A DNA stretch of 64,000 nucleotides, taken from Caldibacillus debilis DSM 16016. GTDB lineage: Bacteria > Bacillota > Bacilli > Bacillales > Caldibacillaceae. The DNA is taken from NCBI RefSeq assembly GCF_000383875.1, contig NZ_KB912879.1, positions 352,084-416,083 on the forward strand, in the 5' to 3' direction. A program made the position numbers and the translations under genes. Shown here piece after piece: positions 61,573 to 61,663 of this stretch. Below the pieces are notes generated by a model. That model did not search any database. It worked only from the letters and a program-made list of their open reading frames with translations, and had not been told where the DNA came from. Numbering within the stretch: position 1 is the first letter of the stretch; every line of letters starts with the position of its first letter.

Positions 61573-61663
61573 GTCACCGTCCTTCGCCGTTCGTTTCAAT
61601 GGATGATAGATGGCGATCGGGCAACATCCTTGTCGTCACAGTTCTTCGCCGTTCGTTTCAATG
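61573..61663. repeat. Duplicated 3' end of the GH1 gene, 62-bp spacing
   Basis: 61573-61601 repeats 61635-61663, the last codons and stop of the GH1 gene, in 27 of 29 positions. On the minus strand the copy reads IETNGEGR then a stop, matching the gene's IETNGEEL and stop. Confidence 0.8.

Follow-up and report, generated by a model that had tools for sequence, protein, structure and literature searches.

A probable scar of off-array spacer integration at the 3' end of a GH1 family gene in Caldibacillus debilis, within a genome-wide class of similar pairs

Background

Integration of spacers outside CRISPR arrays has been described by Nivala, Shipman and Church (2018) as 'spontaneous CRISPR loci generation', in which overexpressed Cas1-Cas2 acted at non-array sites of the genome, as cited in PMC11788318. 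At the array itself, according to PMC4574026, E. coli Cas1 favours G at positions +1 and -2 of the leader-repeat junction. In Sulfolobus, Csa3a has been proposed as a factor repressing off-array integration, according to PMC9456107.

In this study, we report a pair of direct copies flanking a short insert at the 3' end of a GH1 family gene, found in the window (the whole 64,000-nucleotide stretch of Caldibacillus debilis DSM 16016 DNA that was analysed), and describe a class of pairs with the same geometry across the sampled genome. In the open-access literature searched, no description of scars like these from a natural genome was found.

Methods

The sample consisted of 84 stretches of the same genome together with the window, that is 1,706,089 of 3,055,845 bp (56%); sites on the other stretches are given as stretch and position. 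Pairs were scored with +1 for a match and -1.5 for a mismatch. The following were set aside before counting: pairs overlapping the CRISPR repeat (129), pairs caught by a filter for a TTGGACA-type degenerate repeat (89), adjacent or tandem copies (28) and copies longer than 60 bp (4). The TTGGACA filter lost at least one likely scar, L221:7538, which was recovered from a search of short dispersed repeats.

Genes used for the placement of pairs were called with a simple codon model. In searches for the source of an insert, any hit close to the pair within its own stretch was excluded, and a strong source was defined by E<1e-8; weaker candidates, such as those of L175:17754 and L047:7203, were left uncounted. 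The own arrays and simple repeats of relatives were set aside by eye. The 20 relatives include none of the same genus, and the best of the 80 GH1 loci kept is 81% identical; records very near the genome under study may be absent there.

Results

The pair at the end of the GH1 gene

The two copies, at 61573-61601 and 61635-61663, are identical at 27 of 29 positions, lie in direct orientation and are 62 bp apart from start to start. Read on the minus strand, the gene copy encodes I-E-T-N-G-E-E-L-stop and the other copy I-E-T-N-G-E-G-R-stop, with TGA in both. This confirms the sequence-only reading of the window, which had described a 29-bp copy 62 bp away that keeps IETNGE and a TGA. The features of the locus are as follows.

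61636..63072, minus strand: GH1 family gene, its 3' end containing one repeat copy (alignment of relatives)
61635..61663, minus strand: gene copy, ancestral target copy, last codons IETNGEEL and TGA (sequence; ends of relatives)
61602..61634, no strand given: 33-bp insert separating the GH1-end copies
61573..61601, minus strand: second copy, 27/29 identical, reading IETNGEGR-stop (sequence)

One annotated DNA match of the gene was named 6-phospho-beta-glucosidase. Its start at 63072 agrees with that of the relatives, the open reading frame start at 63375 being over-long. The score of the pair is 24. When 59500-64000 was dinucleotide-shuffled 200 times, a score of at least 15 was reached at lags 61-67 in no shuffle and at any lag of 18-199 in four, the best being 16; the GH1-end pair is not a product of chance.

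In four relatives (aligned from the 80 loci kept), the GH1 protein is 68-81% identical and has the same terminal residue, which indicates that the gene copy at 61635-61663 is the older, ancestral one and that the second copy, together with the 33 bp in between, would be an addition. The earlier proposal that the coding copy was the original is supported by this alignment, and the common end residue also speaks against the opposite case that it had named, in which both copies belonged to a longer ancestral coding region.

The insert at 61602-61634 had no further source in the own assembly (95.3% complete, 40 contigs) or in the phages searched and no exact 24-mer match in viral contigs; against plasmids a single 25-base match was obtained, at chance level (E 0.3).

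Other pairs within the window

Three further, unrelated pairs of like geometry (lags 62, 63 and 63) lie less than 4 kb from the GH1 pair, and a fifth, weaker one (lag 66) lies elsewhere in the window.

59804..59833: pair 2, copy 1 (26/30, lag 63)
59834..59866: pair 2, insert of 33 bp
59867..59896: pair 2, copy 2
61127..61156: pair 3, copy 1 (28/30, lag 62)
61157..61188: pair 3, insert of 32 bp
61189..61218: pair 3, copy 2
63346..63371: pair 4, copy 1 (22/26, lag 63), upstream of the GH1 gene
63372..63408: insert of pair 4, of which 63375-63407 has a 31/33 match at L241:2140-2172, in another part of the genome
63409..63434: pair 4, copy 2
37122..37146: pair 5 (weaker), copy 1 (22/25, lag 66), with copy 2 at 37188-37212

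A genome-wide class with one spacing

The sampled 56% of the genome contains 164 isolated direct pairs with a score of at least 15 at lags of 18-199. Seventy-nine of these fall at lags 61-67, where 3.4 were expected (a 23-fold excess), against 85 over the 175 other lags; the other bands of seven lags hold 0-11 pairs each. With a score of at least 20, there were 44 pairs at lags 61-67 and 13 at other lags. Scaled to the whole genome, the 79 pairs would correspond to near 140, less about 3 per 1.7 Mb expected by chance.

The called duplicate lengths (65 pairs) peak at 29 bp (15 pairs) and 30 bp (10 pairs), the CRISPR repeat of this genome being 30 bp long. The inserts measure 23-50 bp between called segments, and 32-39 bp where the duplicate was called at 28-31 bp. 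In 44 clean pairs, the match rate falls to about chance immediately outside both edges of the duplicate. Numbers of these clean pairs with zero to five mismatches are 3, 9, 11, 11, 9 and 1, respectively. Under steady accrual, the zero-mismatch class should be similar in size to the neighbouring classes (about 10; P of 3 or fewer = 0.008). The distribution gives a hint, and only a hint, that scars stopped forming at some time in the past, as would suit the loss of an integrase.

Several local arrangements were observed. At L232:2605-2763, three overlapping copies and two inserts are present, the second insertion being offset by about 8 bp inside the older scar, in an array-like layout. Three pairs at L047:6863-7295 and two at L049:15795-16060, each within less than 450 bp, look like intergenic hot spots. 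The pairs at L175:16740-16836 and L175:17754-17848 flank cas6, and one of them duplicates the 3' end of cas6 itself.

A separate repeat family, filtered from the pair counts, consists of degenerate intergenic units of the ATGTTGGACA type at spacings of about 42, 62-63 and 75 (L006:15646-18018, L007:4880-5371, L011:6751-7167 and L013:8478-8620). Units of about 48 bp with GGAACGGCCGACATCCGTCTTGTACCCGC occur in several head-to-tail copies at L013:8063-8300.

Junctions and placement of the pairs

Of 92 duplicate ends, 47 have GG within the 4 bases adjoining the duplicate on the outside, against 19% at random (p 5e-12, for a GG window chosen after inspection of the same sites); both ends do so at 13 of 46 sites, against 4% at random. 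At the same sites, the GG frequency returns to background when the window is moved outwards by 2-4 bases. The motif is not a clean one, since the left ends also have an excess of CC on their outer side (15-19 of 46). The three readable leaders of the own arrays carry GG or GGG directly before the repeat. The T-tract of the leaders was not found at the scar sites, where leader-junction matches of at least 6/10 occurred in 9 of 46, against 17.7% in the control.

Fifty-five of the 79 pairs touch no called gene, eight lie mostly within coding sequence (and may be chance pairs or true ones), and 16 straddle the end of a called gene. Fifteen of the latter are at 3' ends, while the one apparent 5' end is due to the over-long start call of the GH1 gene. 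The sequence-only reading had suggested looking for gene 3' ends that recur downstream, and these were indeed present, the 15 pairs having a copy that reaches 7-27 bases into the 3' end of a gene. Among pairs with a score of at least 18, the 3' end was overlapped in 11 of 41, against 6.3% of random intergenic 29-mers (p 3e-5), and the 5' end in 0 of 35, with 6.3% expected (p 0.10). Selection against damage to genes and promoters would explain much of the 3'-end bias; a genuine preference for gene 3' ends may also contribute.

A preference for hairpins was not found: compared with shuffled versions of themselves, the 44 targets modelled showed no stronger folding (mean z -0.37, against -0.38 for 300 control stretches). 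Their raw folding energy was lower, -21.6 against -18.1 in the control, but their G+C content was higher (0.55 against 0.48). Complementary flanks showed a slight excess at one of seven offsets (2.27 against 1.82, sd 0.17).

Origin of the inserts

For eight of the 79 inserts, the sampled 56% of the genome contains one strong source (E<1e-8) at another locus; the filtered insert L221:7538 is a ninth. Besides that of pair 4, these are as follows.

L045:2109: source 16S rRNA, 36/36
L248:10297: source match 33/33
L036:13568: source gene at L229:6424, 34/35
L216:6487: source match 29/29
L047:7030: source gene at L020:621, 34/37
L231:17600: source match 35/35
L214:5207: source match 33/34
L221:7538 (ninth, initially filtered): source match 41/41

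Of these nine source loci, seven fall within called genes and one within 16S rRNA; the remaining one is outside any called gene. The nine matches start and stop 0-8 bases from the called edges of the duplicates. A reverse search that started from short dispersed repeats returned the same nine with duplicates (score of at least 13, lags 61-67), whereas each of the five control bands gave 0-1. Nine short repeats are single-copy and at least 97% alike; all seven on different stretches were such inserts and the other two were local repeats, 274 and 286 bp apart.

For the other 71 of the 79 inserts, no strong source was found within the 56% of the genome sampled; the inserts of two pairs, searched against the whole own assembly, also had none, and no insert-to-insert matches were seen among the 79 pairs. 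The nine sources share no single PAM-like motif, CC lying within about 3 bases of one end in five of them.

CRISPR arrays and cas genes of the genome

At least four arrays with 30-bp repeats (GTTTGTATCTTACCTNTGAGGGATTGAAAC) and a period of 64-71 are present, one of which runs off a contig end. The array regions L174 and L176 contain N runs of 838 and 1626 bases, which match interruptions of the array periods measuring 862 and 1665, so these arrays are incompletely assembled. The scars have a mean spacing of 64.1 (54 pairs, range 61-67) and the arrays a mean period of 66.9 (n=57, 64-71; p 9e-14); the ranges overlap, with scar spacing shorter by about 3 bp. A search with the 57 array spacers against stretches other than their own (1.306 Mb, E 0.01) gave no match longer than 17 bp.

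A cas6 gene adjoins one array and was the only one found among the cas genes sought. In the own assembly (95.3% complete, 40 contigs), no match was obtained for Cas1, Cas2 (PF01867 and PF09827 for Cas1/Cas2) or Cas4, nor for the PF01905 effector, and the five Cas3-like matches were all below the cut-off.

Relatives and controls

Eighty loci of other species (1.41 Mb) yielded nine pairs at lags 61-67, comprising six of an array-like repeat in one locus, one of low complexity and two 15-mers; none was an isolated pair of 25-33 bp. Genome G001, a Cas1-bearing relative with 66 repeats belonging to this CRISPR repeat family, contained one convincing pair, L180:17402, in 320 kb. The Cas1-bearing G002, G003 and G005 showed only their own arrays in 239 kb. 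No pair was found at lags 61-67 in 80 kb of G004, which is without Cas1, or at any lag in 40 kb of G013. In G014 (Cas1), G098 and G269, of the same CRISPR repeat family, one weak pair was present in the 18 stretches L268-L285 (360 kb). Among the genomes sampled, the scars belong to this one and do not follow the presence of Cas1.

Discussion

The GH1 pair is likely an integration scar, left when a Cas1-Cas2-type integrase, now lost or unassembled, carried out spacer integration off the array. Such a reaction fits the length of the duplicate and the narrow spacing. It also fits the origin of inserts from single loci, the junction GG and the similar geometry of the genome's own arrays. Insertion as the origin of the copies, Cas1-Cas2 as the enzyme, and its later loss or absence from the assembly are inferred. 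The pair is not counted as a proven member of this class of products because a search for the enzyme genes gave none, scar and array spacing differ by about 3 bp, empty sites were not observed, and the Cas1-bearing relatives sampled are nearly without scars.

According to this model, the integrase would attach the two 3' ends of a DNA piece (about 33-37 bp) to the chromosome where the GH1 gene ends, one to each strand, with 29-30 bp between the two points, and gap filling would then turn the 29-30 bp between the nicks into the flanking copies. The reaction would be the one that adds spacers to a CRISPR array, taking place off the array, and the product may work like a neo-CRISPR. Many such events would have occurred in the lineage, with own DNA among the inserts. 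Insertions that broke genes or separated them from their promoters were probably lost, which would leave the scars that are intergenic or at gene 3' ends.

An integrase or transposase other than Cas1, inserting pieces of 33-37 bp with a 29-30 bp target duplication, is rather unlikely. Such an enzyme would suit the failure to find Cas1 and Cas2 in the own assembly (95.3% complete), the near lack of scars in the sampled Cas1-bearing relatives and the difference in spacing between scars and arrays, but the duplicate length and the junction GG resemble the own CRISPR repeat and leaders. To our knowledge, no transposase makes 29-30 bp duplications around short unrelated inserts. It is doubtful, in the same vein, that the class represents an integrase of an undescribed, non-Cas1 kind which captures 33-37 bp of cellular DNA into GG-flanked sites with a 29-30 bp target duplication or, in a milder form, a CRISPR integrase that had long been loose from its arrays and seeded more than 100 proto-arrays before it was lost.

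End joining can capture filler DNA from elsewhere in the genome. Break repair of this sort, with staggered nicks filled and joined through captured filler DNA by no dedicated integrase, would account for inserts of own-genome origin; it is improbable in view of the narrow lengths of duplicates and inserts and of GG at both junctions in 13 of 46 sites, which suggest that length is measured and a sequence recognised.

The sequence-only reading had proposed that coding sequence was the donor for a copy in the gene-free tract, and had taken this pair as an anchor for interpreting the others; such templated copying is very improbable. One copy is the ancestral gene end and 15 pairs lie on gene 3' ends, as this proposal would have it, but 55 of the 79 lie clear of every called gene, each pair encloses an insert from a narrow range of lengths, and what genes tolerate can account for much of the 3'-end excess. 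Since inserts (32-39 bp, some of them from elsewhere in the genome) sit between the copies and the edges are sharp, the pairs fit target-site duplication by an integration reaction rather than copying from tract to tract, and the 'recipient' is no separate tract. Equally remote is tandem duplication of a 62-67 bp unit with a diverged middle, which would give two direct copies at one spacing but sits badly with chance-level likeness outside copies that stay alike, middles without trace of a common unit, 79 unrelated sites of common spacing, and nine inserts that match other loci to within 0-8 bases of the called edges. Tandem duplication with a decayed middle, transposon duplications and ordinary intergenic repeats were rejected on the basis of the spacing, the sharp edges and the origin of the inserts.

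If the integrase was Cas1-Cas2, this would be a natural genome that records its own off-array activity, graded by divergence, with a target motif and inserts of own DNA. How often adaptation marks the host, whether arrays are born in this way, and what recruits or restrains the integrase would then be testable from sequence, and part of the gene-free sequence of bacteria would be a product of their immune system.

Three known systems can be compared with the scars. Transposon target-site duplications likewise consist of direct target copies flanking an insert, whereas the scars duplicate 29-30 bp, and their inserts of about 33-37 bp are too short for a gene, with none seen at more than one site. 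The own canonical array (GTTTGTATCTTACCTNTGAGGGATTGAAAC) shares with them a repeat of comparable length (30 bp), short inserts and GG before the first repeat; unlike the array, each scar has its own 'repeat', usually in two copies (three at L232:2605), with no leader seen and a spacing about 3 bp shorter. The products of Nivala, Shipman and Church reportedly consist of a spacer-length insert that is flanked, outside the array, by copies of the target as long as a repeat. The scars described here resemble off-array Cas1-Cas2 integration in the repeat-length duplication around a short insert and in the location at non-array sites of the genome; the known case involved overexpression, whereas this genome, in whose assembly Cas1 and Cas2 were not found, carries dozens of mostly diverged scars.
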